From NCBI RefSeq assembly GCF_000160135.1, contig NZ_GG729933.1:316816-380815 (forward strand): a stretch of DNA of 64,000 bases. The letters are read 5' to 3'. Within the stretch, counting starts at the first letter, position 1. Each line of letters opens with the position of its first letter. Both the position numbers and the translations under genes were made by a program. Positions 4,192 through 58,822 of the stretch are shown piece by piece. Source of the stretch: Oribacterium sp. oral taxon 078 str. F0262 (lineage in GTDB: Bacteria; Bacillota; Clostridia; Lachnospirales; Lachnospiraceae). The notes beneath the pieces were generated by a model. It saw only the letters and a list, made by a program, of their open reading frames with translations, searched no databases and had not been told where the DNA came from.

Positions 4192-5697
4192 ATGGAGAAA
4201 TTAAATTATGAGGTTTTGAGGAAAAGCGGATATCAGGGGTATATCCTTCGGGATGCTCCGGTAAAGGTCCTGCAGTTCGGGGAGGGGAATTTTCTCCGCG
4301 CCTTTTCGGATTACTGGTTCGATATGGCGAATGAGAGGGCGGGATGGCAGGGAAAGATCACGATGCTGCAGCCGATCGCCCAGGGACTTACGGAGCTCGT
4401 GAATCAGCAGGAGGGGCTCTATACTCTCTATCTCCGGGGCATGGAGAGGGGGGAGAGGGTGGATAAAAGGCGCGTGATCTCCGCGGTAAAAAACTGCCTG
4501 AACCCCTATACGGAAGAGGGCTTTCGGGAGTTTCTGGAGCTTGCAAAATCTCCGGAGCTTCAGTATGTCGTGAGCAATACGACGGAGGCCGGCATCGTAT
4601 ACGATCCCGATACCCGCTTTGAGGACAGGCCGCCGCACTCCTTCCCGGGGAAGCTCACGAGATTTCTCTATGAGAGATTCCGGGCGGGGCGGGAGGGACT
4701 TGTCATCCTCTCCTGCGAGCTGATCGATGATAACGGAAGGGAGCTGAAGAAGCTCGTGGAGCGTCATGGCGAAGAGTGGAAGCTCGGGGCGGATTTCGGA
4801 AGCTGGCTGGAGAAGGAGAACCTCTTCTGCTCTACCCTTGTCGACAGGATTGTGCCGGGGAGGATCCGGAGCGAGGAGGAGCGGCAGAGACTGGACCGGG
4901 AGAACGGCTACAGCGATCCGCTCGCGGATGTCGGGGAGGTCTTCGGCGTCTGGTATATCGAAGGACCGGAGAGCCTCGCGGAGAAGCTGCCCTTCCATAG
5001 GGCCGGTCTCAATGTACATGTGGTCCCGGAGGTTGCCCCCTATAAGAAACGGAAGGTCCGAATCCTGAACGGGGCGCACACGGGCTTTGTGCTCGGCGCG
5101 TATCTTGCGGGCTTTCATATCGTGAGAGACTGCGTGCAGGATCCCGTGATCCTCGGCTTTCTGAATAAGATGCTCAAGGAGGAGATCATCCCGATCCTGC
5201 CCCTGGAGAGGGAGGACTGTGAGCGCTTCGCCTCGGCCGTGGAGGACCGCTTCCGAAATCCCTTTGTGGACCATCAGCTGCTCTCGATCTCCCTGAATTC
5301 CACATCGAAGTGGAGGGCGAGGAATCTGCCCTCTCTGCTCGAGTACCATGAGAAATTCGGGAAGCTTCCGAAATGTCTCGCGATGAGCCTCGCGTTTTAC
5401 TTCGCCTTTTACTCCGATGGGCTTAAGCAGAGGGAGGAAGACGCCGTCCTTGCGGAAAGGCCGGACGGAGAGGAGTACCGCATAAAGGATGACAAAGCGG
5501 TGCTCGACTTCTTCTGGGAGAAGAGGAATGCCTCCCCGGAGAGCCTTCTCTTTGACGGAATGGGGAGAGAGGACTTCTGGGGCAGGGATCTGAAGGAGAT
5601 CCCGGGGCTTTATCCGCTGACACTGGAAAATCTCAGGCGGATCCGGAGGGACGGCGCGAAGGCGGCCTTTGCCCTTGCCGCAGGGGATGAGGCCTGA
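4192..5697 (+). CDS. uxaB: Tagaturonate reductase (altronate oxidoreductase)
   Basis: NADH-dependent interconversion of D-tagaturonate and D-altronate in galacturonate catabolism. The protein belongs to the long-chain mannitol dehydrogenase family. The 501 residues begin with a Rossmann segment (VKVLQFGEGNFLRAF), continue with the substrate domain, and contain K-R-K-V-R-I-L-N-G-A-H-T, the conserved Lys/Asn/His region of polyol dehydrogenases. The G-L-T-E-L-V-N-Q-Q-E-G-L-Y-T segment is typical of UxaB rather than of fructuronate reductase. ATG at 4192 follows GGGAGCGGG. It is paired with uxaA, which catalyses the next step. Expression is probably controlled by the operator at 3923. Confidence 0.93.
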   Translation: MEKLNYEVLRKSGYQGYILRDAPVKVLQFGEGNFLRAFSDYWFDMANERAGWQGKITMLQPIAQGLTELVNQQEGLYTLYLRGMERGERVDKRRVISAVKNCLNPYTEEGFREFLELAKSPELQYVVSNTTEAGIVYDPDTRFEDRPPHSFPGKLTRFLYERFRAGREGLVILSCELIDDNGRELKKLVERHGEEWKLGADFGSWLEKENLFCSTLVDRIVPGRIRSEEERQRLDRENGYSDPLADVGEVFGVWYIEGPESLAEKLPFHRAGLNVHVVPEVAPYKKRKVRILNGAHTGFVLGAYLAGFHIVRDCVQDPVILGFLNKMLKEEIIPILPLEREDCERFASAVEDRFRNPFVDHQLLSISLNSTSKWRARNLPSLLEYHEKFGKLPKCLAMSLAFYFAFYSDGLKQREEDAVLAERPDGEEYRIKDDKAVLDFFWEKRNASPESLLFDGMGREDFWGRDLKEIPGLYPLTLENLRRIRRDGAKAAFALAAGDEA

Positions 5698-5898
5698 GGG
5701 AGGAAGGACCGCGAGATTGATAAGCTGATCGTCCCGGGGCTTTCCGCGGGGGAATTTTTTTCCCGGGCGGAGGAATTCGTCTATGACAGACGGAACGCGG
5801 CATCTCTTTTCCGCTCCCGAGAGGCGGATACGATAGATCGATCATGGCTCCGCTGCCGGGGGAGAGAGCTTTTGGAATTTTGGAAGAGGAGGAGAAAT
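5698..5898 (+). other. Open, protein-like spacer between uxaB and uxaA
   Basis: The uxaB reading frame has no further stop between its TGA at 5695 and the uxaA start at 5899. The translated spacer looks compositionally like protein (for example K-L-I-V-P-G-L-S-A-G-E-F-F), but it has no ATG or convincing ribosome binding site and I recognise no family in it. It may be a decayed gene fragment or chance in GC-rich DNA. Confidence 0.4.
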
Positions 5899-7383
5899 AT
5901 GGCAGAGTTTGTGCATATCAATCCGGAGGACAATGTCGCAGTTTCGATCCGGCCGATCCCCGCGGGAAGCGAGCTCAAGGTGGATGGGATCTCCGTCAGG
6001 CTGAGAGAGGATATCCCGCAGGGGCACAAATTCGCTCTTTATTCCCTGAAGAAGGGATCGGATATTATAAAATACGGCTGCCGCATCGGCCATGCGACGC
6101 GGGAGATCGCGGCCGGAGAATGGGTTCACAGCCACAATATGGCCACAAATCTCTCCGCTGAGCTGGAATACCGCTACAGTCCTTCCCATCCCGCGCTTAA
6201 AAGGAGGGAGACGGAGAGCTTTCTCGGATATCTCCGATCGGACGGGAGAGCTGCCACGAGAAATGAGCTCTGGATCATCCCGACAGTAGGCTGCGTAAAT
6301 GATATCGCGAAGGCGCTCGTCCGGGAGAATCAGGATCTCGTGCAGGGGAGCATCGAAGGGCTCTACTCCTTCCCCCATCCCTTCGGCTGTTCCCAGACCG
6401 GAGAGGATCACGGGATGACGCGGAAGCTCCTCGCGTCTCTCGTCCGGCATCCCAACGCGGGGGGCGTACTGGTACTCTCTCTGGGCTGTGAGAATCTGAC
6501 CCACGAGCAGTTTCTCGCCGAGCTCGGGCCTTATGACAGGGAGAGAGTCCGCTTCCTGATCTGCCAGGATACGGAGGATGAGTTGGAGGACGGGAGGAAG
6601 CTTCTCATGGAGCTTTCGGACTATGCTGGTCGCTTTCAGAGACAGCCCCTCGGAGTCGACAAGCTGCTCATCGGAATGAAGTGCGGGGGCTCCGACGGCC
6701 TCTCCGGCATCACGGCAAATCCTGTGGTGGGGCGTCTCTCGGATCGTCTGATCTCGGAGGGAGGAAGCACGGTGCTCACCGAGGTTCCGGAGATGTTCGG
6801 TGCGGAGGAGATGCTTCTCCCCCGCTGTGAAAACGAGGAGGTCTTCCGGAAGGCGTCCGATATGCTGAACGGATTTAAGGAATATTTTCTGAGTCATCAT
6901 GAGCAGGTCTATGAGAATCCGAGCCCCGGAAACAAGGAAGGGGGGATTACAACTCTCGAGGATAAATCCTGCGGCTGCGTACAAAAGGGCGGGAGAGCGC
7001 CGATCGTCGATGTGCTCGGCTACGCGGAGAGCGCGAAAAAACAGGGCCTCAGTCTTCTCTGGGGGCCCGGAAACGATCTGGTATCCGCGACGAATCTGAC
7101 TGCTGCCGGCTGCCAGCTGATTCTCTTTACGACGGGACGGGGGACCCCCTTCGGCGCCCCGGCGCCGACGATGAAGCTGTCCAGCAACGACAGCCTCGCG
7201 AAGCGGAAGAAAAATTGGATTGACTTCAACGCGGGAACTGTCGCATCCTCCGGGGAATCCATCGACAGCGCCGCGGAGCGCCTCTGGAACTTCGTAAAGG
7301 AGGCGGCCTCCGGGAAAAGGACCAGGAGCGAGGAGCATGACTGCCGGGAAATCTCGATCTTTAAGGACGGCGTAATATTGTAG
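5899..7383 (+). CDS. uxaA: Altronate dehydratase UxaA
   Basis: Dehydrates D-altronate to 2-keto-3-deoxygluconate using an iron-dependent active site. From the ATG at 5899 the protein is 494 residues, the usual family length. The N-terminal 100 residues form a SAF domain (residues V-A-V-S-I-R-P-I and the G-H-K-F-A motif), followed by the large catalytic domain with conserved Cys/Gly segments (F-G-C-S-Q-T-G, L-G-C-E-N, M-K-C-G-G-S-D-G, K-S-C-G-C-V-Q-K-G). The 5899 start is preferred because GAGGAGGAG lies just upstream and the protein then aligns to the family N-terminus. A TTG-started extension is open in the same frame but is not needed. It forms an operon with uxaB. Confidence 0.95.
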   Translation: MAEFVHINPEDNVAVSIRPIPAGSELKVDGISVRLREDIPQGHKFALYSLKKGSDIIKYGCRIGHATREIAAGEWVHSHNMATNLSAELEYRYSPSHPALKRRETESFLGYLRSDGRAATRNELWIIPTVGCVNDIAKALVRENQDLVQGSIEGLYSFPHPFGCSQTGEDHGMTRKLLASLVRHPNAGGVLVLSLGCENLTHEQFLAELGPYDRERVRFLICQDTEDELEDGRKLLMELSDYAGRFQRQPLGVDKLLIGMKCGGSDGLSGITANPVVGRLSDRLISEGGSTVLTEVPEMFGAEEMLLPRCENEEVFRKASDMLNGFKEYFLSHHEQVYENPSPGNKEGGITTLEDKSCGCVQKGGRAPIVDVLGYAESAKKQGLSLLWGPGNDLVSATNLTAAGCQLILFTTGRGTPFGAPAPTMKLSSNDSLAKRKKNWIDFNAGTVASSGESIDSAAERLWNFVKEAASGKRTRSEEHDCREISIFKDGVIL

Positions 7384-8482: not shown

Positions 8483-8560
8483 GTCTGCCATCAGGCAGAC
8501 TCGGAGCGTTCTTGACCACTTCTCGAAGAGAAGTGCCTCCCGAAGGGGGGGCGGCTGAAG
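8483..8560. repeat. Cluster of short hairpins between convergent genes
   Basis: GTCTGCC/GGCAGAC (8483-8500) and CACTTCT/AGAAGTG (8517-8535), followed by GC-rich sequence rich in -CGAAG- loops, fill the gap between the DUF3021 gene and the reverse-strand acetyltransferase. There is no T-tract. A two-way termination region is the simplest reading. Confidence 0.55.
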
Positions 8561-8591
8561 CCACCCGGGCGAAGCCGAGTCTTTCGCTTCC

Positions 8592-9104
8592 CTAATCTCC
8601 GAGCCTTCGGAGCATATCGTGCCAGCGCACGCCTCCCCAGCTGGAGCTTCCGATTCCGAGATCCTCAAAGCCGAGGTTCTCATAGAAGCCGACGAGCTGG
8701 CTGTGGCAGGTCAGAAGCAGAAGAGAGCGGCCCCTTCCCCGCTCTCTTTTGATGTAGCGCTGCATGAGCTCGCTGCCAAGGCCGTGATGCCGATACTCGG
8801 GGCGGACATCCAGACCGAGGAGGAGGACGGTCTTTCCCCTTGGATCGTGGAGAGAGGCATCCGTGAAATACTCATCCCGGAAGCTCTCCTCCTCTGTGGC
8901 GAGTCCCGTGAGAAAGCCTGCGATTTTCCCATTGATCCGATCATAGGCGATGAGAAAGGTTTCCGGGGCGGTCTTCACGCGTTCCGCCATATGTTCTCTC
9001 TTGCAGGCTTCGTTTTCCGGAAAACAGAGGAGCTCGATTTCTGCGGTCTCATCGATCTCGGACGGTCTCACATTGCGGAATTCAAAACGATCAAAATTAA
9101 ACAT
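8592..9104 (-). CDS. GNAT-family N-acetyltransferase
   Basis: 170-residue GNAT protein. The acetyl-CoA binding core is visible as L-G-L-D-V-R-P-E-Y-R-H-H-G-L-G-S-E-L-M (the V-x-x-x-x-R/Q-x-x-G-x-G/A motif A), followed by L-L-T-C-H and the motif B Y-E-N-L-G-F. The start at 9104 (M-F-N-F-D-R-F) is preferred because AAAGGGGG precedes it. An upstream extension to 9260 would start with unrelated hydrophobic sequence. The gene stands alone, convergent with DUF3021 and divergent from the HPr-like gene. The substrate cannot be predicted. Confidence 0.88.
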   Translation of the reverse strand: MFNFDRFEFRNVRPSEIDETAEIELLCFPENEACKREHMAERVKTAPETFLIAYDRINGKIAGFLTGLATEEESFRDEYFTDASLHDPRGKTVLLLGLDVRPEYRHHGLGSELMQRYIKRERGRGRSLLLLTCHSQLVGFYENLGFEDLGIGSSSWGGVRWHDMLRRLGD

Positions 9105-9161
9105 AGAAATCCCCCTTTCCTCGCGGCCGTTTCCGGCTTTAATCTCGGGTCTTACGATTAC

Positions 9162-9170
9162 AGTATAGCA
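9162..9170 (-). promoter_or_regulatory. Extended -10 promoter of the GNAT gene
   Basis: Read on the minus strand, TGCTATACT forms an extended -10 element about 58 bp upstream of the 9104 start. No good -35 is seen, which is typical for extended -10 promoters. Confidence 0.5.
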
Positions 9171-9199
9171 GAAAAAGCCTTTAAATAGGAAGAGAGATC

Positions 9200-9228
9200 T
9201 TGAAGATTGTGAGCTTTGCCCATTGTAA
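9200..9228 (+). promoter_or_regulatory. Possible promoter of the HPr-like gene
   Basis: TTGAAG (9200-9205), a 17-bp spacer and TTGTAA (9223-9228). The -10 is weak. This and the GNAT promoter are the only signals I see in the 9105-9365 gap. Confidence 0.35.
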
Positions 9229-45882: not shown

Positions 45883-47728
45883 AGTAGTTTCCCAACCAGT
45901 GAGACTATATCGACAATGACATAGTCTTAGGTGGATGTTCTCTTCAGTGACCTATTGTCACATTGATGGCTCAGGCGGAGCTGACTTCGGCTTGTTTTTG
46001 CTGCCCGGCGGTCTGCCGCGTTTACGCTTTACCGGCTGCTCCGCCTGATCGGATGGTGCTTCAGTCTTCGGACGATCCAGGTGAGAAGGATTCCTCCGTA
46101 CAAGCTGCCAGTTTTCGCTTCCGACACGCGCTTTCTTCGCCCGGATTAGCACGGAGAAGATCTTTCTGTAGGTGTAATCCTCAAGAAGACCTGCCTTGTC
46201 AAAGGCATCGATCAGGCGAAAGGTCAGGAGCGTTGAAAGGAAATTACAAAACTCACTGCCGATCACAGAGTAGTCGTCCTGCACGCGGGTCTCATCGAAT
46301 TCACAGGCAGATTTGTAATACCGCATGACGAGCTCGATCTCCCAGCGCTTGTCATAAGCTTTGCAGGCAATCTCCGGAGGAAGATCCAGATCACACTCTA
46401 GTACGATCGTGCCGAAAGTCTTCTGTTTCTCCCTGAGATTCTCAAGGCTGTAGGTCTTTTCCTTCTTTGCCCGGCGCAGCCAGTCACTTTCTTCTTTGGC
46501 GGCCTTGGCACTGCTCCGGTAGGAATAGAGCCATTTGTCGATGCCAACGCACTTTTCCTTGCGGTAAGTGATGCCTTCATAGCCGGGCAGGATCGCCGTG
46601 AAGTCCAGCATGGAGTGCCGCGCAATCAGCTTGGAGTTACGCTTTATCGGGTTAAGATAATGCAGATCCGGATGGCTTTCAAACTCCTCGTGAGCTGCGG
46701 ATTCCGGGAAGCCTTTATCACCGACAATGATTCCTTTGGTGATCTGGTTCTCTTTGATGAAGGCTTCATAGGAAGTGGCATCCAGCATATTTCCGGGAAA
46801 GCACTTGGAGCAGATCGGCTCCATCGCTTCCAGATCGAACGCGAAGAGAACAGAGATATCTCTTGTCCCCTTGGTCCGGGCTTTCCTGGAAAAATCGGAG
46901 AGAGAGTTTACTTTGGATTCATCCGACTTGAGCGTTCCATCGACCAGCAGATGGTGATCCGGGGAGACAGAGGCTGTCCGGTTCCTCATAAAGGTAACGA
47001 TGCGGGACATCGTCTTTCCAAGATCGTTCAGGAAGGTCGATACCGTGTTTTTCGATAAGGATACGTCGGGATACCGTTCTGACAGAAAGCTGGTCTCATA
47101 TGCCTCCTTAAGCTCAAAGTCACGGATGCCTTTGTCACAAACCCTCAGCAGTGAGATGCAGTAAATCTTCATTGCGTCACTCTGACTGTATACGGCAAAC
47201 AGTTCATCCTGGATGCTTTTAAACAATCGGTCGCAGAGGACGACACTGGCCCAATCCTTCAGATCAATCGGCGAAAGAGAAACGTCCTGCGGAGCACTCT
47301 TTTCGATTGGAACATAGGCACCATCAACGATGTGGCCGATCGTAGGACCGTTCACCGGAAGATGTCGGCCGCCTGCGTTTCTGCAGCCGACACGCCGGCG
47401 GACAGCGTATCGCTTTTTGCCGCTCCCATAAGCAATGACAACTGTGTTCTTAGGGCGCGGGACATCTAGAATTTCACGTGGAATCGGCATAACAGGTCTC
47501 TCCTTTCGTATAGTCTGATAATAGCATATATTAGACTATATTCCAAGAGAAACATGCCTGAAATGTCGACAGAATTGTCGACAGAATTCAAGGAGCTGAG
47601 TGTCAAAAAGGAGGGCTTTTGGTGCCATATCTGACTGAAACGGGCCAGCCGGAAACGGAAATATAGGGATCAGCCCAAAAAGCAGGTTTCGTATAGGCTG
47701 TTATATAGTCTCATCGGTTGGGAAAGTA
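45883..47728. mobile_element. IS4-type insertion sequence, copy 2 (diverged relative)
   Basis: About 1.85 kb, in the same orientation as copy 1. Ends share TTTCCCAACC plus TGAGACTATAT as imperfect inverted repeats (45888-45910, and the complement in 47704-47726). The left end also has GACTAT...ATAGTC. Ends resemble those of copy 1 (CTTTCCCAA...GACTATA). No clear target duplication is seen, so limits are good to a few bases. Confidence 0.83.
45958..47490 (-). CDS. IS4-superfamily DDE transposase, second relative
   Basis: 510-residue transposase, homologous along its length to the one at 41971-43572; roughly three residues in four match in the stretches I compared by eye. It retains L-L-V-D-G-T-L-K, I-I-V-G-D-K-G-F-P and the exact Y-D-K-R-W-E-I-E-L-V-M-R-Y-Y-K signature. 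It has one C-terminal AT-hook-like motif (K-R-G-R-P-P-G-S-K-N) rather than two, accounting for the shorter tail. The frame is intact. The divergence from copy 1 shows the two elements arrived separately rather than by a recent duplication. Confidence 0.93.
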   Translation of the reverse strand: MPIPREILDVPRPKNTVVIAYGSGKKRYAVRRRVGCRNAGGRHLPVNGPTIGHIVDGAYVPIEKSAPQDVSLSPIDLKDWASVVLCDRLFKSIQDELFAVYSQSDAMKIYCISLLRVCDKGIRDFELKEAYETSFLSERYPDVSLSKNTVSTFLNDLGKTMSRIVTFMRNRTASVSPDHHLLVDGTLKSDESKVNSLSDFSRKARTKGTRDISVLFAFDLEAMEPICSKCFPGNMLDATSYEAFIKENQITKGIIVGDKGFPESAAHEEFESHPDLHYLNPIKRNSKLIARHSMLDFTAILPGYEGITYRKEKCVGIDKWLYSYRSSAKAAKEESDWLRRAKKEKTYSLENLREKQKTFGTIVLECDLDLPPEIACKAYDKRWEIELVMRYYKSACEFDETRVQDDYSVIGSEFCNFLSTLLTFRLIDAFDKAGLLEDYTYRKIFSVLIRAKKARVGSENWQLVRRNPSHLDRPKTEAPSDQAEQPVKRKRGRPPGSKNKPKSAPPEPSM

Positions 47729-49019: not shown

Positions 49020-50516
49020 ATGGAGAAGCTTGTTTCAATGAAGGGGATCACGAAGACCTTTCCCGGAGTTCTCGCCCTGGATCAGGTGGACTTCGAGCTG
49101 GAAGCGGGAGAGGTCATGGCCCTTCTGGGGGAGAATGGGGCGGGTAAATCGACGCTCATGAAGGTTCTCAGCGGGATCCACGGGAGAGACGCCGGGGAGC
49201 TTTGTATCCTCGGGAAAAATTACGGTGATCTCTCCCCGAAATCCGCGCGGGAAGCGGGAGTGGCGATCATCCATCAGGAGATGAATCTCTGCAATCAGCT
49301 GACAGTGGCGGAAAATATCTTCCTTGGCAGGGAGCGAAGACACGGGATCTTCCTGGACAATGCGGCGATGAACCGCGAGGCGGAGAAATATCTGGAGGAG
49401 CTCGGGATCTCTGTCCCGGCAGACAGGATTGCGGGTGAGCTGCAGGTTTCCCGGCAGCAGATGGTGGAAATCGCGAAGGCTCTTTCTGTCCGGGCCAGGA
49501 TTTTGATCATGGATGAGCCCACCTCGGCGCTGAGCAGCCGGGAGATCGAGGAATTATTTCGGATCATTCGAAAGCTGAAGGAGCAGGGACATGGGATCGT
49601 CTATATCTCCCACAGACTGGACGAGCTCTCTCACATCGCAGATCGAGTCAGCATCATGAGGGATGGGAGGATGGTCTCCTCCGGCAGCTTTTCGGAATAC
49701 AGCATGGATCATATCATCTCGCTCATGGTGGGAAGAGAGATCAGGGAGCAGTATCCGAGAATAGACCGCGCTAAGGGCAGGAAGATTTTCGAAGTGAAGG
49801 ATCTCAATGCCGGGAGAAAGGTAAGAAATATCGGCTTTTCTCTCTATGAGGGGGAAATTGTCGGGATTGCGGGACTCATGGGGGCCGGGAGGACGGAGCT
49901 TACGCGGGCAATTTTCGGTGCGGATCTCCGGGAGAGCGGATCGTTTTATCTGGACGAGAGGGAAATTAAGATCGAAAAGCCCGGGGATGCCATCCGGGCG
50001 GGAATCGTACTAGCCCCGGAGGATCGGAGAAAGGACGGACTTTGCACGAGGCTCTCCATCCGGCAGAATCTGGCGCTTCCGAATCTGGACAGGATCTGCC
50101 GGGGATTCGGAGTGATTGATTCCAGAAAGGAACGCGCGCTTTGCCGGGAAGCGATCGAGAATCTGAAGGTCAAAGCACCGGGGATGGAGACAGAGGCCGG
50201 ACTTTTGTCCGGGGGAAACCAGCAAAAGATCGTGGTCGGGAAATGGCTGCTCAGAAATTCAAGGCTTGTGATCTTTGATGAACCCACGCGCGGGATCGAC
50301 GTGGGCGCAAAGGTGGAAATCTATCAGCTGATGAATCGCCTGAAAAAGCAGGGGATCGGGGTTCTCTTTGTATCCTCGGAGATGCCGGAGCTTTTGGGAC
50401 TTGCGGATCGGATTCTCGTGATCTGCGACGGGCGGATCACCGGAGAGCTCAGCGCGGCGGAGGCGAGTCAGAGCGAGATTTTGAAGCTTGCGACAGCCTT
50501 TGAGAAGAAAATATGA
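49020..50516 (+). CDS. Sugar ABC importer ATPase with two ABC domains (RbsA/MglA type)
   Basis: 498-residue tandem ATPase. The first half has Walker A G-E-N-G-A-G-K-S-T, a signature region V-S-R-Q-Q-M-V-E-I-A-K-A-L and Walker B I-L-I-M-D-E-P-T-S-A-L. The second half has the usual degenerate Walker A (G-L-M-G-A-G-R-T-E), L-S-G-G-N-Q-Q-K and V-I-F-D-E-P-T-R-G-I-D. It powers import of a monosaccharide with the permease and binding protein downstream (CUT2 family). It is the intact counterpart of the degenerate protein at 55872. It runs into a frame whose first ATG overlaps its stop by 4 bp. Confidence 0.95.
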   Translation: MEKLVSMKGITKTFPGVLALDQVDFELEAGEVMALLGENGAGKSTLMKVLSGIHGRDAGELCILGKNYGDLSPKSAREAGVAIIHQEMNLCNQLTVAENIFLGRERRHGIFLDNAAMNREAEKYLEELGISVPADRIAGELQVSRQQMVEIAKALSVRARILIMDEPTSALSSREIEELFRIIRKLKEQGHGIVYISHRLDELSHIADRVSIMRDGRMVSSGSFSEYSMDHIISLMVGREIREQYPRIDRAKGRKIFEVKDLNAGRKVRNIGFSLYEGEIVGIAGLMGAGRTELTRAIFGADLRESGSFYLDEREIKIEKPGDAIRAGIVLAPEDRRKDGLCTRLSIRQNLALPNLDRICRGFGVIDSRKERALCREAIENLKVKAPGMETEAGLLSGGNQQKIVVGKWLLRNSRLVIFDEPTRGIDVGAKVEIYQLMNRLKKQGIGVLFVSSEMPELLGLADRILVICDGRITGELSAAEASQSEILKLATAFEKKI

Positions 50517-50551
50517 GAGGCACAGAGCCTTGCGGGAAATGGAGAGAGGAT

Positions 50552-51562
50552 ATGAAAGAGAAGAAGAACGCGCCCAAAAGGCTTCTGGAGATCCGGGGAA
50601 TGGGGGGGGCTCTGACGGCATTTGCGGGCCTCATCATCATATATATCGTGTTTGGCCTGATCAATCCGAAGGTTCTGTCCCTTCAGAACATCCTGAATCT
50701 GCTCCGCTCCATGTCGAAATACCTTCTGATCGGACTGGGACAGAGTGTCGTCATGATCACGGGAAATATCGACCTCTCCATCGGATCGGTGGTGGGGATG
50801 AGCGCGATGATGAGCGCGACGCTTATGACGAGGGGTATTCCGCTGATTCCGGCACTCTTTCTGACTCTCTGCCTCGGGCTTTTGATCGGACTTTTGAACG
50901 GGATTTTGGTGGGGAAGTTCAAGCTGCCTCCGTTTATCGCCACGCTCGGCACCATGTTTGTTGCGCGCGGGATCGGCTATCTGGTAAACGGAAACCGCAA
51001 TACGGATAATATCGCGGCCGTTCTCGGAAAGGGGGAGGGGGACCGCTTTCAGGGCTTTTTCTACTACGGAAAAACGCTCGGAATCTATAATACCTTCTGG
51101 ATCGCGCTCCTCCTTTTCCTTATCTTCTATTTTCTTCTGGGGAAAACCCGGGTCGGAAGGCATATCTATGCGATCGGCTCCAATGCGGACGCGGCGAGGC
51201 TCTCGGGAGTGGATATCGTGGCGACTACGATTAAGGCCTATCTGATCAGCGCATTCTGTGCGGTTATCGTGGGCTATATCCTCTGCGCACAGGCCGGTAT
51301 GGGCAATATGGAGGCCGGAAACATGTACGAAATGTACGGCGTCGCGGCGGGAGTCATCGGAGGCGTATCACCGCTTGGGGGCTCAGGGCTTCTTCTTGGA
51401 ACCTTTGCGGGAGCCGCTCTCTGGCAGACTCTGGAAAACGGACTCAATATGGTGGGAGCGCAGGTTGGGATTCAGCGGATCGTCATCGGAGTGATTGTCG
51501 TACTGGCTGTTCTCACGGATGTGCTTGTGCGCTATGGCAGGCGCCGTCCCGCAGGTCACTGA
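50552..51562 (+). CDS. Sugar ABC importer permease (RbsC type)
   Basis: 336-residue CUT2 permease with about nine to ten TM helices. Family motifs G-Q-S-V-V-M-I-T-G-N-I-D-L-S-I-G-S-V-V-G and G-S-N-A-D-A-A-R-L-S-G-V-D are present. I choose ATG 50552 (M-K-E-K-K-N-A) because GGAG lies 7 bp before it. The ATG at 50513, overlapping the ATPase stop, would add 13 non-family residues. Acts with the adjacent ATPase and binding protein. Confidence 0.93.
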   Translation: MKEKKNAPKRLLEIRGMGGALTAFAGLIIIYIVFGLINPKVLSLQNILNLLRSMSKYLLIGLGQSVVMITGNIDLSIGSVVGMSAMMSATLMTRGIPLIPALFLTLCLGLLIGLLNGILVGKFKLPPFIATLGTMFVARGIGYLVNGNRNTDNIAAVLGKGEGDRFQGFFYYGKTLGIYNTFWIALLLFLIFYFLLGKTRVGRHIYAIGSNADAARLSGVDIVATTIKAYLISAFCAVIVGYILCAQAGMGNMEAGNMYEMYGVAAGVIGGVSPLGGSGLLLGTFAGAALWQTLENGLNMVGAQVGIQRIVIGVIVVLAVLTDVLVRYGRRRPAGH

Positions 51563-51703: not shown

Positions 51704-52741
51704 ATGAAAAAAGCTTTGGCGGTATTTCTGAGCAGCGCAGTGATCGCGGCAGCGCTCCTGTCCGGATGTTCGTCTGCGGGAACGAAGGGGACAGAGCAGC
51801 TAGAGAGCAGCCCTAAAACCGAGGAGAGCTCTGCTCCTGCGGATACGGGGAAGGAGGAGGGATCGTCTGCGGCCGGGGCAGATGCGGAGGCGGTCAAGGC
51901 GGACAAGCCCTATAAGATCGCCCTGATCACCATGGATTCCATCGACCAGCATTGGGTCAACCTCAATAAGGGAGCGCAGGAGGCGGCGAAGAAGGACGGC
52001 GTGACGGTGGATTTCATGTCCCCGGACACCAAGGATGATTCGAAGCAGATTGAATGCGTGAACAATGCGGTGGCCGGCGGCTATGATGCGATCATGATCG
52101 CCGCAAACGGGCCGGACGCGATCTCCGGTTCTCTGAAGGAGGCGATCGACAAGGGAATTAAGCTGGTCTATGTCGATTCTCCGGCCAATGTGGATGCGGA
52201 GGCGAGCTTTTCGACCAATAACAAGGAAGGGGGAAAAAGCGCGGGAGAGGAGATGCTGAAGGCCTTGAAGGCGAAGGGGATCGAGAGCGGTGATATCGGA
52301 ATCATCAGCACGAATGCCTCTACTCAGTCGACGGTGGACCGCGATGCGGGCTTCCGGGAGGCCTTCGAGGGGACGAAGTTCAAGCTTCTGGAGACGCAGT
52401 ATTGTGACGGTGATGCCGCAAAGGCACAGAGCATCGCGGAAAATTATATTACGCAGGGAGTCGTCGGAATCTTCGGCGCCAATGAGGGCTCTACGGCCGG
52501 TGCCGGGAATGCGATCAAGGCGTCCGGAAATTCGGATATCGTCGGTGTGGGCTTTGATAAGTCAGATACGATCAAGGGACTCGTACAGGACGGCTATCTG
52601 CTCTGCACCATGGCGCAGAATCCCGATAAGATGGGAAGCCTCGGCGTGGATGCCTGCGTAGAGGTTCTGAATGGAAAGACACTGGGAGGGAAGGTCACGG
52701 ATACCGGAGTCTCTGTGCTGGATAAGAGCAATATCCAATAG
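51704..52741 (+). CDS. Ribose/allose-type sugar-binding lipoprotein
   Basis: 345-residue periplasmic-binding-type protein (RbsB family). Lipobox L-L-S-G-C near residue 22, a ~45-residue Ser/Glu/Ala linker, then the two-lobe PBP type 1 fold (P-Y-K-I-A-L-I-T-M-D to D-T-G-V-S-V-L-D). Ligand-side segments such as D-S-I-D-Q-H-W and F-G-A-N-E-G-S fit a monosaccharide. AGGGAGGA precedes the ATG. A terminator follows it, so the ROK kinase downstream may be reached only by read-through or its own promoter. Confidence 0.94.
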   Translation: MKKALAVFLSSAVIAAALLSGCSSAGTKGTEQLESSPKTEESSAPADTGKEEGSSAAGADAEAVKADKPYKIALITMDSIDQHWVNLNKGAQEAAKKDGVTVDFMSPDTKDDSKQIECVNNAVAGGYDAIMIAANGPDAISGSLKEAIDKGIKLVYVDSPANVDAEASFSTNNKEGGKSAGEEMLKALKAKGIESGDIGIISTNASTQSTVDRDAGFREAFEGTKFKLLETQYCDGDAAKAQSIAENYITQGVVGIFGANEGSTAGAGNAIKASGNSDIVGVGFDKSDTIKGLVQDGYLLCTMAQNPDKMGSLGVDACVEVLNGKTLGGKVTDTGVSVLDKSNIQ

Positions 52742-52847: not shown

Positions 52848-53043
52848 CAAAGCTGCTTTTGCTTTCGAAGAAGGAAACACTGCTTATCTTCTGATTTTAA
52901 TGTCGATCAGTTTCGGGATGAGGCATAGGGATTCGCGGATTTACGCTTCGCTTTTTCCGCGTTCCTTACGCACAGCGGCGGCGTTTCGTGCCTTTGGGAG
53001 CGCGCTCATTATCCTGATTTCATCAGCGGATATGGAGGGAGAG

Positions 53044-54033
53044 ATGGAAAGACTTTATATGGGGCTTGACATCGGCGGCAGCAAGTCCGCTGTGGTCTTT
53101 GGAAGAGAGCGGGGAGCGGAAATCGAGCTTTTAAAGCGCGAGGCGATAGAAACGGAAGCGGGGAGGAGGACGGCAGGAGAGTGCATAGAGGCACTGATCG
53201 GGCTTTCGGAGGAGATGCTTTCGTCCTTTGGGGGACAGAGACCGTGCGCTGTCGGAATCAGCTGCGGAGGACCTCTTGACAGCGGAGCCGGGATCATTCT
53301 GTCCCCGCCGAATCTCCCGGGCTGGGATCAGATCGCGATATGCGAAATCATGACGAAGCATTTCCGACTTCCCGCCTTCTTACAGAATGACGCCAATGCC
53401 TGTGCCCTTGCGGAATGGAGATTCGGGGCGGGGAGAGGGGCGGATAATATGATCTTTCTTACCTTTGGCACCGGCATGGGCGCGGGCTTCATCCTGAACG
53501 GACGTCTCTATGAGGGGAGCAGCGGAATGGCCGGAGAGATCGGACATATCCGGATGTCGGAGTATGGGCCTGTGGGCTATGGAAAGGAGGGATCCTTCGA
53601 GGGCTTTTGCTCCGGAGGCGGGATTTCGGAAATGGCCAGGACGCTTCTTTTGGAGAGGAGGCAGAGGGGAGAAAAGCTTCTGTGGGAGGGAAGAGAGCTG
53701 CGTGCGGAAGAGCTGAGCGCAAAGCTCCTTGCGAAGGCCGCGCGCCGGGGAGATCCCTTTGCGCGCTCTGTGTTTCGAAGATCCGCTCTGATGCTGGGGA
53801 GAGGATTATCCATATTGATTGATCTTCTGAATCCGGATATCATAGTGATCGGAAGCATCTATGAGCGCTGTGAGGACTTGTTTTCGGAGGAGATGCGAAG
53901 AGTGATATCGGAGGAGGCACTGAGTGGTCCCGCCGGAATCTGCGGGATCAGAGCGGCGGAACTGGGAGATCGGATCGGCGACTATGCGGCTTTGTCTGTG
54001 GCGGTGGATGGGATGATGCGGGAGATGAGATGA
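53044..54033 (+). CDS. ROK-family sugar kinase, zinc cysteines absent
   Basis: 329-residue kinase/repressor-fold protein without a DNA-binding domain, so an enzyme. Phosphate motif L-D-I-G-G-S-K and catalytic Asp in Q-N-D-A-N-A-C-A-L-A-E are present, as are F-G-T-G-M-G-A-G and the E-I-G-H motif. The C-x-C-G-x-x-G-C-x-E zinc cluster normally found after G-H is replaced by V-G-Y-G-K-E-G-S-F-E, so the zinc site is lost. It probably phosphorylates the sugar imported by the upstream transporter; allose and ribose-like sugars are candidates. The start at 53044 is set by family alignment; GGAGGG lies 5 bp upstream. Overlaps the YesN gene by 4 bp. Confidence 0.88.
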   Translation: MERLYMGLDIGGSKSAVVFGRERGAEIELLKREAIETEAGRRTAGECIEALIGLSEEMLSSFGGQRPCAVGISCGGPLDSGAGIILSPPNLPGWDQIAICEIMTKHFRLPAFLQNDANACALAEWRFGAGRGADNMIFLTFGTGMGAGFILNGRLYEGSSGMAGEIGHIRMSEYGPVGYGKEGSFEGFCSGGGISEMARTLLLERRQRGEKLLWEGRELRAEELSAKLLAKAARRGDPFARSVFRRSALMLGRGLSILIDLLNPDIIVIGSIYERCEDLFSEEMRRVISEEALSGPAGICGIRAAELGDRIGDYAALSVAVDGMMREMR

Positions 54034-54803
54034 TAAAGGTGCTGATCGCCGATGACGAGAAAAGAATCTGTGAACTGATTCAGATTCTGGGAGACTGGGA
54101 AGGGCATGGCATGGAGCTTAGCGGCACGGCGGAAAACGGGCCGGCCGCATTGGAAAAAATTGCGATGAGTCCCCCGGATATTCTGATTACGGATATCCGC
54201 ATGCCCGGTCTCACGGGGCTTGAGCTGATCCGGGAGGCCAAAAAGCTTTCGCCCGCCCTAAAGACGGTCATTATCAGCGGCTACGCGGATTTCGATTATG
54301 CGAAGACCGCGATCGAGGAGGGAGTTTTCGCCTATCTGCTGAAGCCGATCCAAAGGCAGGAGCTGAACGAGGTCTTGGAAAAGCTGAAGCTTTTGATCGG
54401 GGGCGGAGGGGGAGAGGAGAGGAAGGAGGAATCCGAGAGGGAAGGGGAGTCAGAGAAGGAAAAAGCGCATCATGCCGTACGCCTTGCAAGAAGATACATC
54501 CGGATCCATTTTCAGGAGCAGATTACTCTGGAGAGCGTCAGTGAGAGCGTGGGCCTGACATCTTCCTATTTCAGTAATCTCTTTAAAAAAGAGATGGGAA
54601 TCGGATTTGCCAGATATCTTATCAATGTGCGGATGGATGAGGCGAAGGAGCTTTTGAGAGAGACAAACCTCTCCGTGGCGGAAATCTGCCGGAGAGTGGG
54701 ATATAATGACGCAAAGCACTTTTCCCATATCTTTGAGGAGACATCCGGGATGAGACCGAGCGTCTATCGAGCCTCTGCGGTCGGAAGCCGGGAGCTCTTA
54801 TGA
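54030..54803 (+). CDS. YesN-type response regulator (receiver plus AraC HTH)
   Basis: 257 residues: receiver domain (1-120; A-D-D-E, phospho-acceptor Asp in I-L-I-T-D-I-R-M-P-G, Lys in L-L-K-P-I), a short Glu/Gly-rich linker (125-147) and a C-terminal AraC-type double HTH (155-250; I-T-L-E-S-V-S-E-S-V-G-L-T-S-S-Y-F-S and S-V-A-E-I-C-R-R-V-G-Y-N-D). The middle domain common in YesN proteins is missing, making this a short version. It is coupled to the kinase by a 4-bp overlap. Probable target: the sugar transporter and kinase genes upstream. Confidence 0.94.
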   Translation: MIKVLIADDEKRICELIQILGDWEGHGMELSGTAENGPAALEKIAMSPPDILITDIRMPGLTGLELIREAKKLSPALKTVIISGYADFDYAKTAIEEGVFAYLLKPIQRQELNEVLEKLKLLIGGGGGEERKEESEREGESEKEKAHHAVRLARRYIRIHFQEQITLESVSESVGLTSSYFSNLFKKEMGIGFARYLINVRMDEAKELLRETNLSVAEICRRVGYNDAKHFSHIFEETSGMRPSVYRASAVGSRELL

Positions 54804-55882
54804 AGAGGCGGGGGAAGAGAGCGATCTCTCTCAAGATCATTTTTTTCTTGTTCATCGTTCTTGCTCTATTCCTTCTTGTGATCGCGACGGATCTCTTCTG
54901 CTCCGGAGAGGCATCCTTTTTTCGCTTTCGCGCTGTCTTTCTGCTCTTTCTTCTATTGCTCCTCTCTCTTTTCTTTTTCCTTTGCATTTATCGCCCTTAC
55001 CGCTTCTATGAGGAGAGGCTTGAGCGGGTTCTCCGAGGCTATGCCGCTTTAACGGAGCTTTGCGCGGAGCTGCCCGCTCTGACACCGATGAATAAAAGGG
55101 AGCTGGAGCTGGTATCGGAGATCCTGAATTCCGCGGAGCTTTCGGAGCAGAGCAAACGGCAGGCGCAGTACCAGGCTCTGCAAAATCAGATCAACCCTCA
55201 TTTTCTTTATAATACTCTGGACGGCATCCGCAGCGAGGCGCTGATCGCCGGGCTGGATAAGGTGGCGGAGATGACAGAGGCATTGGCCGCTTTCTTTCGA
55301 TACACGATCAGCAATACGGAGGATCTGGTGACGCTGGAGGAGGAGCTTGAGAACTGCAATACCTATTTCAAAATCCAGAAATACCGCTTCGGGGATCGCC
55401 TTCTCATGAGGATTCTCATGGATGAGGAGGATAAGGCTTTTCTTCTGAAATGCATGATTCCAAAGCTGAGCCTGCAGCCGATTTTGGAGAACAGCATTAT
55501 CCATGGGACGGAGCTGAAGCTGGAGCAGGGCTGCACAGAGATTCGGATCGAGAGAACGGACAGAGGGCTCCTGCTCACGGTTTCCGATAACGGGGTCGGA
55601 ATGGATCAGGAGCACCTCAGGAAGCTCAGGAAAAGACTGGGAGATGCCAGGGAGGAGCTCTCGGCCGGAATTACCGGGACGGGCAGAGGGGGGATTGCCC
55701 TTTCGAATGTCAATCAGCGTATTCATATTCTCTTCGGGGAAGAGTATGGACTGCATATTTTCTCTGTGGAGGATATCGGTACGGATGTGGAGATCACTCT
55801 GCCCCTGATCCGGAGAGAAGCAGAGGAAAATTCCGAGAAAAGACGGCTGTATTCAGGGAGGAGCGGAAATCTTGAGATGTGA
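54800..55882 (+). CDS. YesM-type sensor kinase lacking an extracellular sensor domain
   Basis: 360-residue histidine kinase of the His_kinase (LytS/YesM) family. Two TM helices (about 10-31 and 44-64) are joined by only ~12 residues, so there is no dCache or other extracellular domain and no obvious HAMP domain. The His_kinase box holds His134 (I-N-P-H-F-L-Y-N-T-L-D-G), and the HATPase domain has P-I-L-E-N-S-I-I-H-G and D-N-G-V-G-M-D plus a G-R-G-G-I-A-L-S-N-V motif. The layout resembles intramembrane-sensing kinases, which receive their signal from a partner protein. It overlaps the next gene by 11 bp. Confidence 0.92.
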   Translation: MKRRGKRAISLKIIFFLFIVLALFLLVIATDLFCSGEASFFRFRAVFLLFLLLLLSLFFFLCIYRPYRFYEERLERVLRGYAALTELCAELPALTPMNKRELELVSEILNSAELSEQSKRQAQYQALQNQINPHFLYNTLDGIRSEALIAGLDKVAEMTEALAAFFRYTISNTEDLVTLEEELENCNTYFKIQKYRFGDRLLMRILMDEEDKAFLLKCMIPKLSLQPILENSIIHGTELKLEQGCTEIRIERTDRGLLLTVSDNGVGMDQEHLRKLRKRLGDAREELSAGITGTGRGGIALSNVNQRIHILFGEEYGLHIFSVEDIGTDVEITLPLIRREAEENSEKRRLYSGRSGNLEM

Positions 55883-57347
55883 AATTCTTCGCATGGAAAA
55901 GGTGACATATCTGGGGCAGGACAATCCCGTTTTGCAGAATTTTGATCTTTGTATCATGCAAGAGGAAATTATGGGACTGCTCCCGATCAATCATTTTGGC
56001 ATAGCGACTCTTCTCAAGCTCTTACTCGAAAATGATCCGATCTACTATGGATACATCTATTTCCGGGGAAAGCTCATTAACTCATGGAAGGAGAGCGGAG
56101 CGAAAAAAAGGACGCCGCAGCTTAGTCTGATCTCAGAGGAGAGCTCCCTGATCGAGGGACAGTCGGTGCTGAGCAATATCTTTGTCTATCAAAGGGGCTT
56201 CCGGGATTGGATCATTCGAAACCGCGTTCTGGAAAAGAGACTGGGAGGGATCTTTGAAGATCTTTCTTTAGAGATCGACCCCCGTTCGTCCGTGGAAAGC
56301 CTGGGGAGCTTTGAGAGGATTATCGTAGAAATCATCCGCGGCATCACAGCGGGACACTCTCTTATGATTTTCAATGAGCTGGGAGCTGTGCTCAGCGAGG
56401 AGGAGCTCAAAAAATTATATCAGATCATAAGATATTACAGGGAGAGGGGAATCAGCTTTCTTTTGATCAGCCCGCATTATGAGGAGCTCAAGATGATCTG
56501 CGATCGGACGGCCTTCCTGAAGGACGGGCAGATCATGAAGATCGCAAAAGACCAAAGAGAAGGAGAAGGGATCGCCTCCGCCATATCGAAAAATTATCGG
56601 AAGCAGATCAACTTTTATTTAAAAGACAGGAAGCTTTGGGATAAAATGACGGCTTTTTGCGTGCACTATCTCGGAAAGACGGAGAGACAGGGCTTCGAAT
56701 TTACGATCCGAGAGGGAGAATGCCTGGTCTTACAATTCCTGGATTCAGCGGATTACAGAGATTTTTCGGACTGCCTGACGGGGGATGGAAGAAAGAGAGA
56801 GGCGGCTTTCCTGCTCGACGGACGCAGGATCCGCCCGGGGAGAGACAGGGAGTGCGCGGTCATCTGGGAGCAGGCGGATAAGAGCATGCTCTTCCCTGAA
56901 CTTAGCTTTATGGAGAATCTTTGCTTTACCATGGAATTCGCCTTGGGAAATCCCATAAAGCGGAAAAGGATGCGGGATAGAATACGGAGGGAGCAGGAGG
57001 AGCTTTTCGGGAAGGGAATCGCCCGAAAAGCGGCGGGAGAGCTTACAAAGAGAGAAAAATATGCTCTTGTCTACCATCGGATTCTCCTGCAAAGGCCCAA
57101 GTTCATTTTTTGCATACAGCCCTTTAAGAATGCAGGACTTGCGCAGAGAGAAAGAATCTGGGAATTACAGAGAATGCTTTTACAAAACGGGATTGCACTG
57201 ATTATTCCGACGATCAGTATGGCGGACTCTCTGTCCATTGCCGATCGCATCATCCGGCTTCATACACAGGGAGAGGCAGAGGAATGGAAGCGGATCTCCT
57301 TCCACCTCCTGCCGGACACCGTGCCCTTCCATGACCTTTATTCCTGA
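55872..57347 (+). CDS. Degenerate RbsA-like tandem ABC protein (pseudo-ATPase)
   Basis: 491-residue protein, same length and domain plan as the intact ATPase at 49020. Its first Walker A is L-P-I-N-H-F-G-I-A-T instead of G-x-x-G-x-G-K-S-T, its Walker B is L-M-I-F-N-E-L-G-A-V-L-S, the signature is S-L-G-S-F-E-R-I-I-V-E-I and the H-loop reads L-I-S-P-H-Y. In the second half the phosphate loop is L-Q-F-L-D-S-A-D-Y and the DEPT box I-Q-P-F-K-N-A. It should therefore not hydrolyse ATP. The frame is full length, with a TTG start at 55872 well spaced from GGGAGGAG; ATG 55893 is an alternative. Cotranscribed with YesN/YesM. I know of no assigned function; a role in signalling with the transporter is inference. 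Confidence 0.85.
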   Translation: MRCEILRMEKVTYLGQDNPVLQNFDLCIMQEEIMGLLPINHFGIATLLKLLLENDPIYYGYIYFRGKLINSWKESGAKKRTPQLSLISEESSLIEGQSVLSNIFVYQRGFRDWIIRNRVLEKRLGGIFEDLSLEIDPRSSVESLGSFERIIVEIIRGITAGHSLMIFNELGAVLSEEELKKLYQIIRYYRERGISFLLISPHYEELKMICDRTAFLKDGQIMKIAKDQREGEGIASAISKNYRKQINFYLKDRKLWDKMTAFCVHYLGKTERQGFEFTIREGECLVLQFLDSADYRDFSDCLTGDGRKREAAFLLDGRRIRPGRDRECAVIWEQADKSMLFPELSFMENLCFTMEFALGNPIKRKRMRDRIRREQEELFGKGIARKAAGELTKREKYALVYHRILLQRPKFIFCIQPFKNAGLAQRERIWELQRMLLQNGIALIIPTISMADSLSIADRIIRLHTQGEAEEWKRISFHLLPDTVPFHDLYS

Positions 57348-57651: not shown

Positions 57652-57735
57652 CATCGTATTTCACTTACAGAGTCGAGGTTTATGGTTTATTTCGCTGATC
57701 GGCTCTGGAATTTTTCTGCTTTGCCGAGGGGAAAT

Positions 57736-58239
57736 ATGGATTTTCCGGGGAAAAGGCTGATACTCGTGTGTCACTGCATCTTGAATCAAAATGCGGTCCT
57801 GAGAGGCTGGGAGAGGGCGAGAGGCGCTTTCCCCTTTGCGGCGGATCTTATGAAAAGCGGGTATGGAGTGATACAGCTTCCCTGCCCGGAGCTTCTTTTT
57901 CTGGGGCCGGACAGGCCTCCCATGAGCTATGAGGACTATGCCCGTCTTTCCGGTTACAGGGAGCACTGTATCCGCCTTCTGGAGCCGGTGCTGAAGGAGC
58001 TTTCAATTTGCAGCAGAAAGGGATACCGCTTCCGGGGGGTGATCGCGGTCCGGGAAAGCCCGAACTGCGCGCTGAGTGAGAGAAGAGGGGTCTTTATGGA
58101 GCTTCTTTTTGAGCGGCTGCGCGAGCTTCATCTGAGCACGGATTTCATAGAGCTTCCCGTCTGGTATGCGGAGGGAGAGGAGAGGGATTTCAGAAAGAGG
58201 CTGGACGATTTTCTTAGGGGGAAAAGAGATGAGAGCTGA
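57736..58239 (+). CDS. TudS-related putative desulfidase (CD3072-like)
   Basis: 167-residue protein resembling TudS/DUF523-type desulfurases, which use a [4Fe-4S] cluster bound by three Cys. The opening L-I-L-V-C-H-C-I-L-N-Q-N-A-V, the C-P-E-L-L-F-L-G segment and V-R-E-S-P-N-C match the spacing expected for the cluster ligands. Members remove sulfur from thiolated small molecules. The start at 57736 follows GAGGGG; the frame open upstream to 57682 is not needed. It overlaps the ECF S-component gene, an association also seen in Clostridioides (CD3072/CD3073). The substrate is unknown. Confidence 0.82.
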   Translation: MDFPGKRLILVCHCILNQNAVLRGWERARGAFPFAADLMKSGYGVIQLPCPELLFLGPDRPPMSYEDYARLSGYREHCIRLLEPVLKELSICSRKGYRFRGVIAVRESPNCALSERRGVFMELLFERLRELHLSTDFIELPVWYAEGEERDFRKRLDDFLRGKRDES

Positions 58240-58822
58240 GAAAACCAGGATTTTGGTCTTATGCGCCATGGCGGTCGTGATCAATGTTGTATTGGGGGAG
58301 GCCGTTTCGGCGATGAAGATCCCTCTCCTCTTCCTGGATACGCTGGGGACGATTTTCATCTCGGCGGCTTATGGCATGGGCTATGGGATTTTGACCGGTG
58401 TGAGCACCAATCTCCTCATGGGAGTTGTGGGGGGAGCTGTGGCGATACCATTTGCTCTTGTCAGTGCGGCGGTCGCAGTCACCGTGTCGCTTTGTCGGAA
58501 GTTCAGTCATGGGCGCTTTCCCCTTCCTACCGCTGTCGTCGCGGGACTCCTTCTGTCTGTGATCTGTCCTATGATCGGTGCCCCGATTCGCCTTGCGCTT
58601 TTCGGCGGGCTGACGGGTTCCGGAACGGATATCCTGATCATGGCTCTCCGGCAGTCCGGAAAGGATATGATCAGCGCGACCTATTGGGGGGCTGTCGCGG
58701 GAAATTTTACGGATAAGCTTGTCTCCTCTGTCTTGGTCTCGCTCCTTTTGAACGGGCGTCTGGGAAGGCTCCTCCTTCAGGGAGAGAGGGGAGAAAAGCG
58801 GGAGATAAAATCCGGAAGGTGA
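58229..58822 (+). CDS. Putative ECF transporter S component (CD3073-like)
   Basis: 197-residue membrane protein with five to six TM helices, typical of S components that bind a vitamin-like substrate and dock to an energising EcfT/A module. F-L-D-T-L-G-T and the A-Y-G-M-G-Y-G-I-L-T-G segment fit the family. AGGGGG precedes ATG 58229, which overlaps the desulfidase stop, so translation is coupled. No EcfA/EcfT genes are nearby; a shared module elsewhere is expected. A relic of a second copy lies at 60011-60088. Confidence 0.82.
   Translation: MRAEKTRILVLCAMAVVINVVLGEAVSAMKIPLLFLDTLGTIFISAAYGMGYGILTGVSTNLLMGVVGGAVAIPFALVSAAVAVTVSLCRKFSHGRFPLPTAVVAGLLLSVICPMIGAPIRLALFGGLTGSGTDILIMALRQSGKDMISATYWGAVAGNFTDKLVSSVLVSLLLNGRLGRLLLQGERGEKREIKSGR

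Follow-up and report, generated by a model that had tools for sequence, protein, structure and literature searches.

Introduction

The described systems closest to the one treated here are histidine kinases that take their signal from a transporter or a transporter-type protein. BceS has a loop of ~25 residues and forms a sensory complex with BceAB (PMC5786555, PMC7828314), and XylFII-LytS and CuaD-CuaSR are sugar-responsive and receive their signal from a transporter-type protein, a binding protein that engages a kinase domain outside the cytoplasm (PMC6321045, PMC10384115); the helices of CuaS lie at 30–49 and 316–339. Here we analysed a stretch of 64,000 nucleotides (the window) from Oribacterium sp. 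oral taxon 078 str. F0262 (contig NZ_GG729933.1), in which the gene of a 360-amino-acid (aa) histidine kinase of the YesM type that lacks both an extracellular sensor and a HAMP domain (54800..55882, + strand) overlaps that of a 491-aa protein termed pseudo-RbsA (55872..57347, + strand). The latter has tandem nucleotide-binding domains (NBDs) but neither Walker A nor the D/E residues of Walker B, as judged from motif tables, a two-NBD model and its separate clade. A preliminary description of the sequence had placed this gene pair at 54800–57347, which proved exact, and had the genes overlap, which was borne out (11 bp). The pairing was seen again in tens of genomes, and we propose that YesN, YesM and pseudo-RbsA constitute a three-component sugar-sensing module; as a full account this is the best explanation we can offer, and we put its chances slightly above even.

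Like the intramembrane-sensing kinases of BceRS-BceAB systems, the window YesM has two transmembrane (TM) helices and a short loop, and PMC5786555 and PMC7828314 agree with the earlier statement that BceS-type kinases are signalled by an ATP-binding cassette (ABC) transporter. In those systems it is BceAB, whose permease carries a large extracellular domain, whereas the window locus has no BceAB-type partner and its neighbour is an RbsA/C/B sugar importer of the CUT2 type; moreover, its kinase belongs to the YesM/PF06580 type and the ATPase-like neighbour lacks ATP motifs. The locus resembles XylFII-LytS and CuaD-CuaSR in combining a sugar two-component system with a transporter-type partner; unlike these, it has no extracytoplasmic kinase domain that binds a binding protein, and the additional partner here is an NBD protein of the cytoplasm. 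With RbsA and other CUT2 ATPases, pseudo-RbsA shares the probable origin and the tandem architecture, with two NBD folds in one chain of the model, but it differs in lacking Walker A and Walker B in both halves. MalK-MalT and the sulfonylurea receptors are further cases in which an ABC protein regulates a partner in signalling; unlike pseudo-RbsA, these proteins keep their nucleotide sites, and they are not known to act on a histidine kinase. The window system would work like the intramembrane-sensing kinases and the binding-protein-coupled systems, with the full set of features of neither. The preliminary description knew of no described system of this composition, and we likewise found no description of pseudo-RbsA with YesM in the open-access literature, subscription papers lying mostly outside the search.

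Pseudo-RbsA accompanies short YesM kinases

With the window protein as query (E <= 1e-30), a match was obtained in 14 of 200 genomes of the same family, its own included, at 15 places. At all of them a short YesM lay directly 5' (split into two frames in L030; L and G numbers denote loci and genomes), and YesN preceded YesM at 14, the contig ending there in L023. A profile query of titled genome records returned 68 loci, not all of them members of the family, where the window protein alone as query had returned none. The final sets comprised 65 pseudo-RbsA, six relatives keeping Walker A1 and 64 importer RbsA proteins; six duplicate loci (L038, L051, L060, L065, L066 and L078) had been dropped before counting, L090 (352 aa, at a contig end) was excluded from the 65, and L076 was included despite a broken frame (419-aa piece). 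YesM was found immediately 5' of pseudo-RbsA in 61 of the 65 (58 under a stricter rule of 250 aa and smaller overlap), and the six Walker A1 relatives also stand directly 3' of a short YesM. In L059, L061 and L062, pseudo-RbsA lies 5' of YesN-YesM in the same cluster, with one large gene intervening in L059 (8853–10889) and L062 (8511–10763) that is chemoreceptor-like judging from its visible ends.

The pairing also holds when viewed from the kinase. The 16 family-carrying genomes contain 142 PF06580 kinases, namely 17 of 300–400 aa, 124 of at least 400 aa and one 208-aa fragment outside both length classes (G011:C33). All 17 short kinases adjoin an RbsA-like partner, which lacks Walker A1 in 16 cases and keeps it in one (G082:C15). 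None of the 124 long kinases was within 19 kb of a pseudo-RbsA among the matches listed, as judged from coordinates, that list reaching down to ~257 bits, beyond which very divergent members could escape. Each of six further short kinases among the matches listed (in G015, G038 and G179) has an RbsA-like protein after it; Walker A1 is missing from four of these proteins and kept in two. Extension to 398 genomes of the phylum and 392 of the order yielded 59 loci. In 20 of these the pseudo-RbsA profile outscored the RbsA profile, and all 20 (five already known from the window-protein query) have a short YesM and none has Walker A1; the other 39 have no short YesM, except for L154 with a generic kinase match of 52 bits. 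A short-YesM profile searched against 391 genomes of the class gave 18 frames of 335–381 aa among the matches listed, 16 of them with pseudo-RbsA next door (G576 and G000, the genome of the window, included); the pseudo-RbsA of G1005 is in convergent orientation and that of G962 is cut by a contig end. The 418-aa kinase of G496 was not counted as short.

As a control, 20 loci with longer YesM were chosen from high-scoring kinase matches on long contigs in 12 of the 16 family-carrying genomes. Pseudo-RbsA was present at none of them, and eight had an RbsA-type or RbsC-type gene within ~6 kb, six of these having both, including a full-length RbsA. Because these loci, eight of them with CUT2 genes, have no pseudo-RbsA, neither YesM nor the importer alone predicts it; the predictor is the missing sensor. 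A chance neighbourhood is ruled out by the recurrent pairing with short YesM together with this control. The preliminary description had suggested tabulating Walker A-less RbsA-like genes beside sensorless YesM, expecting its idea to fail if they were rare and unconserved there; the opposite was found. Its suggestion that pseudo-RbsA replaces an extracellular sensor is likewise favoured by the control. As a separate observation, L168 holds a 418-aa YesM-like kinase (4647–5903) beside a small ABC ATPase and a permease (amino-acid type, by reading) and no pseudo-RbsA.

A kinase without an outside sensor

Most YesM kinases carry a large extracellular (dCache-like) sensor. The window YesM matched His_kinase PF06580 (96.9 bits) and HATPase_c (44.5 bits), and no sensor or HAMP domain was detected at Pfam cut-offs. 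Its two TM helices are separated by 15 residues on the Kyte-Doolittle scale, and in an AlphaFold2 model (predicted local distance difference test, pLDDT, 82; predicted template modelling score, pTM, 0.60) helices 9–33 and 38–78 are joined by a 4-residue loop. A loop of only 4–15 residues does not hold a dCache-like sensor and lies within the range of intramembrane-sensing kinases (two TM helices, loop of at most ~25 residues), in line with the preliminary description, which had estimated ~12 residues and no room for a ligand-binding domain. The two other PF06580 kinases encoded in the same genome are longer, at 594 and 635 aa by frame length. Across the pseudo-RbsA loci, the kinase motif of the short YesM begins at residue 125–181 (median 129, where the pattern matched), and the predicted inter-TM loops measure 2–15 residues, with 26 in L096 by hydropathy; L073, L075, L076 and L095 fell below the two-helix hydropathy threshold. 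Since YesM has no outside domain, its signal most likely arrives via another protein.

An RbsA-type protein with dead ATP sites

In the window pseudo-RbsA, Walker A1, Walker A2 and both Walker B D/E pairs are substituted, confirming the reported loss of ATP-binding motifs from a full-length RbsA-like protein in both halves. The motif alignment found all four motifs in 63 of 64 importer RbsA proteins and three in the remaining one. Both Walker A motifs were lost in all 65 members of the pseudo-RbsA family (the window protein included); 60 had none of the four motifs and five only the first D/E pair. Pfam ABC_tran recognised pseudo-RbsA at 26.6 bits in one stretch and true RbsA at 168.3 bits in two. 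The best NCBIfam matches were XylG, MglA and RbsA-type sugar importer ATPases, all far below cut-off. Both NBD folds are nevertheless present in the AlphaFold2 model (pLDDT 88, pTM 0.87), and a PDB fold search returned mostly two-NBD proteins at the top, for example DppD and OppD chains. PDB sequence searches gave generic ABC proteins and no RbsABC complex among the best 60 of 483 and of 575 matches.

The family was seen in Clostridia and one Paenibacillus, and full-length frames occur in many genera (hosts include Mobilisporobacter, Anaerocolumna, Caproiciproducens, Ruminiclostridium, Robinsoniella and Tepidanaerobacter). For related pairs, the ratio of nonsynonymous to synonymous substitution rates (dN/dS) was 0.026–0.131 for pseudo-RbsA (values obtained for 13 of 18 pairs) and 0.015–0.063 for RbsA, several of the dS values being saturated. 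In a tree of 61 rows, pseudo-RbsA formed one clade (SH-like approximate likelihood ratio test, SH-aLRT, 99), and this clade and the Walker A1 relatives, which are basal, were split from importer RbsA (SH-aLRT 100); L096 and L036 were long branches. Pseudo-RbsA is a clade under purifying selection and not a decaying gene.

Conservation was scored at nine ATP-site motifs, the first H-loop excluded, and at the segments that follow the Q-loops. The pseudo-RbsA/RbsA ratio was 0.62–0.84 at the former, as compared with 1.01 and 0.96 at the first and second post-Q-loop segments, respectively. The first comprises residues 97–111 (56160..56204, + strand), with the family consensus LTVADNIFVLRRGF for 97–110, and the second residues 344–355 (56901..56936, + strand). 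Residues 101–120, which overlap the first segment, have lower model confidence, as do some other stretches. In ABC importers, the post-Q-loop segments lie against the permease. The dead ATP sites also have conserved residues of their own: Y401 in 64 of 65 proteins, R403 in 62, P417 in 65, H202 in 62 and C284 in 60.

The motifs are lost by degrees among YesM-linked proteins. All four were found in L201, Walker A1 with its D/E pair in L202 and L091, Walker A1 alone in L093, L095, L096, L097, L103, L165, L169 and L172, and none in pseudo-RbsA; in partial cases the motifs retained are always in the first half. This series suggests a stepwise loss. L201 and L202 are absent from the tree and both stand before YesN, not after YesM, and for this reason the order of loss is only inferred. 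Their RbsA-like proteins (L201 4799–6469, L202 7449–8942), which precede YesN-YesM near a normal RbsA-RbsC operon, are possible ATP-active relatives of pseudo-RbsA.

Importer neighbours and co-evolution

In the DNA of the 71 loci, RbsA and RbsC were both found in 58, RbsA alone in five, RbsC alone in one and neither in seven. Two of the latter are contigs of ~5 kb (L084, L091), two are cut on one side (L023, L085), and three have several kb on both sides (L049, L083, L097). The order is YesN-YesM-pseudo-RbsA-RbsB-RbsC in L198 (G082; also L036) and YesN-YesM-pseudo-RbsA-RbsC, with a 4-bp overlap, in L196 (G015). No RbsA was found in the surrounding locus DNA of L196 and L198, and pseudo-RbsA is there the sole RbsA-like protein near RbsC. 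Partial correlations of tree distances, computed in four runs with bootstrap on 46 and 44 loci, linked pseudo-RbsA directly to YesM (0.60) and YesN (0.58; both for 46 loci, intervals above zero). That between YesN and RbsC was 0.22 (interval 0.02–0.42), just above zero in one of the four runs. L029 and L034 carry far-diverged importers beside an ordinary trio, as if exchanged. Tandem-RbsB sugar-binding proteins of 615–627 aa occur in four pseudo-RbsA loci (L024 3907–5781, L032 640–2523, L071 12194–14041 and L077 1578–3431), the two RbsB-type domains having been checked by Pfam for L024.

Proposed function and rival explanations

We conclude that YesM-YesN probably has pseudo-RbsA as its dedicated third component, which supplies the input of the missing sensor, and that pseudo-RbsA most likely acts as an adaptor, probably by docking on the permease. 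Contact with YesM appears likely and contact with RbsC plausible. The best-supported single proposal for the input is the state of the RbsC permease. Pseudo-RbsA would derive from an importer-type ATPase that lost ATP hydrolysis in steps, presumably beginning with the second half, while retaining the segments that grip the permease. It would then sit on an RbsC-type permease, instead of or alternating with RbsA, and relay to the cytoplasmic YesM helices what state the RbsB-RbsC complex is in; YesM would phosphorylate YesN, and the importer operon would be switched on. The preliminary description had proposed a report of importer occupancy or flux, which fits the CUT2 neighbours, the permease-facing segments and loci L196 and L198, but not the co-evolution, which runs with YesM and YesN and not directly with the importer.

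Several observations weigh against such a role at the importer, or against the strict pairing. Across the 46 loci, pseudo-RbsA gave partial correlations of 0.07 with RbsA, –0.03 with RbsC and 0.11 with RbsB, and these importer values were near zero, with intervals including zero, in all four runs; a simple mirror-tree comparison (48 loci, 0.35–0.40) had pointed to a link with RbsC and RbsA, which the stricter partial correlations removed. Column-wise co-variation of pseudo-RbsA and YesM (75 pairs) yielded no usable contact map: the mutual information was above that of 20 random pairings, but this was rejected as evidence of contact because the random-pairing null breaks shared ancestry. Part of the post-Q-loop pattern is common to other ABC NBDs, and its retention therefore does not name the partner. 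Some modules (L083, L097, L203) have neither a CUT2 RbsA nor an RbsC in view, and the genomes of L196 and L198 have RbsA-type proteins elsewhere that could serve the permeases in trans. The pseudo-RbsA of L049 has no YesM within 15 kb. In G1256 a normal RbsA comes after the short YesM, and in G1086 an RbsA-like protein with all motifs, including both Walker A, stands before YesN in the stead of pseudo-RbsA.

The main rival is that pseudo-RbsA acts directly on YesM as a cytoplasmic ligand sensor and leaves the importer untouched, the ATP site between its halves having been rebuilt as a pocket for another molecule, either a sugar phosphate or a nucleotide held without Walker A. Direct co-evolution with YesM and YesN only would be expected from such a sensor, as would the conserved residues of the dead sites (Y401, R403, P417, H202 and C284) and modules with neither CUT2 RbsA nor RbsC in view, such as L097, L203 and L083, the last by a D-lyxose isomerase gene. 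We nevertheless regard it as rather unlikely, since it leaves unexplained the presence of RbsA and RbsC at 58 of 71 loci, the occurrence of RbsC but no RbsA after the module in L196 and L198, and a conservation of the post-Q-loop segments that matches RbsA. The last two of these features would also suit a decoy RbsA that limits import by competing for RbsC and owes its position behind YesM to operon organisation only. Linkage to the short kinase rather than to importers (none of the eight longer-YesM loci with CUT2 genes has the protein) and direct co-evolution with YesM and YesN make this decoy improbable. Slightly less credit still is due to a scaffold needed for YesM stability or assembly only, with YesM sensing the membrane or RbsB itself: a dedicated chaperone would give the same tight linkage, but would need neither an importer-ATPase origin nor CUT2 neighbours. 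That pseudo-RbsA is a functionless, decaying RbsA duplicate carried along with YesM is hardly credible. The ATP motifs are indeed lost, and there is one in-match stop each in G805 and G741; purifying selection contradicts this reading (dN/dS as above), as do the full-length frames in many genera and the conserved new residues.

Returning to the three-component module, a more far-reaching version of it, which we hold only tentatively and consider more doubtful than the module itself, is that of an importer turned receptor. RbsB, the permease and the dead motor copy would together form a non-transporting antenna for the sensorless kinase, the motif states (all, first half, none) would be the steps of conversion, with L196 and L198 as its end point. 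If the proposal is true, a transporter ATPase that has lost catalysis can stand in for a kinase's sensor domain, which would mark a route from transporters to receptors; the distribution suggests a transporter piece turned signalling part across numerous Firmicutes of gut and soil. The family is easy to recognise; since its best NCBIfam matches are sugar importer ATPases, many of the sugar-sensing systems in gut Clostridia may be misread as plain importers. Relatives with all, some or no ATP motifs are testable material. The gene next to the L083 module mentioned above, predicted to encode D-lyxose isomerase (8508–9215, Pfam Lyx_isomer, 342 bits), lies directly 3' of YesN-YesM-pseudo-RbsA with no importer in view, and is a hint to the substrate.

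Organisation of the window locus

The genes upstream of the pair are at the positions given in the preliminary description, as open reading frames and Pfam matches show, and all are on the + strand. The importer ATPase RbsA (49020..50516; best NCBIfam match RbsA, 585 bits, cut-off of 745 not reached) keeps all four ATP motifs intact and served as reference for the motif tables. It is followed by an RbsC-type permease (50513..51562; Pfam BPD_transp_2, 140 bits), an RbsB-type sugar-binding protein (51704..52741; Peripla_BP_4, 178 bits), a ROK-family protein, either a sugar kinase or a regulator (52900..54033; ROK, 174 bits), and a short, 257-aa YesN-type response regulator (54030..54803; Pfam receiver and AraC-type helix-turn-helix, HTH). 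ROK/YesN and YesN/YesM overlap by 4 bp each. Together with the 11-bp overlap of YesM and pseudo-RbsA, the arrangement is that of a translationally coupled operon, and coupling may be presumed. The start codon of pseudo-RbsA is TTG and aligns with the Met of its relatives.

The window YesN is the shortest of 74 YesN-type open reading frames in the loci (duplicates kept in; median 537), its receiver-to-HTH stretch having shrunk to a Glu/Gly-rich linker. A DDE transposase (45958–47490; Pfam DDE_Tnp_1) lies ~1.5 kb 5' of the rbs cluster. Downstream, two open reading frames of 185 and 218 aa (57682–58822) without a Pfam match at 0.001 are followed by the gene of an NMT1-type binding protein.

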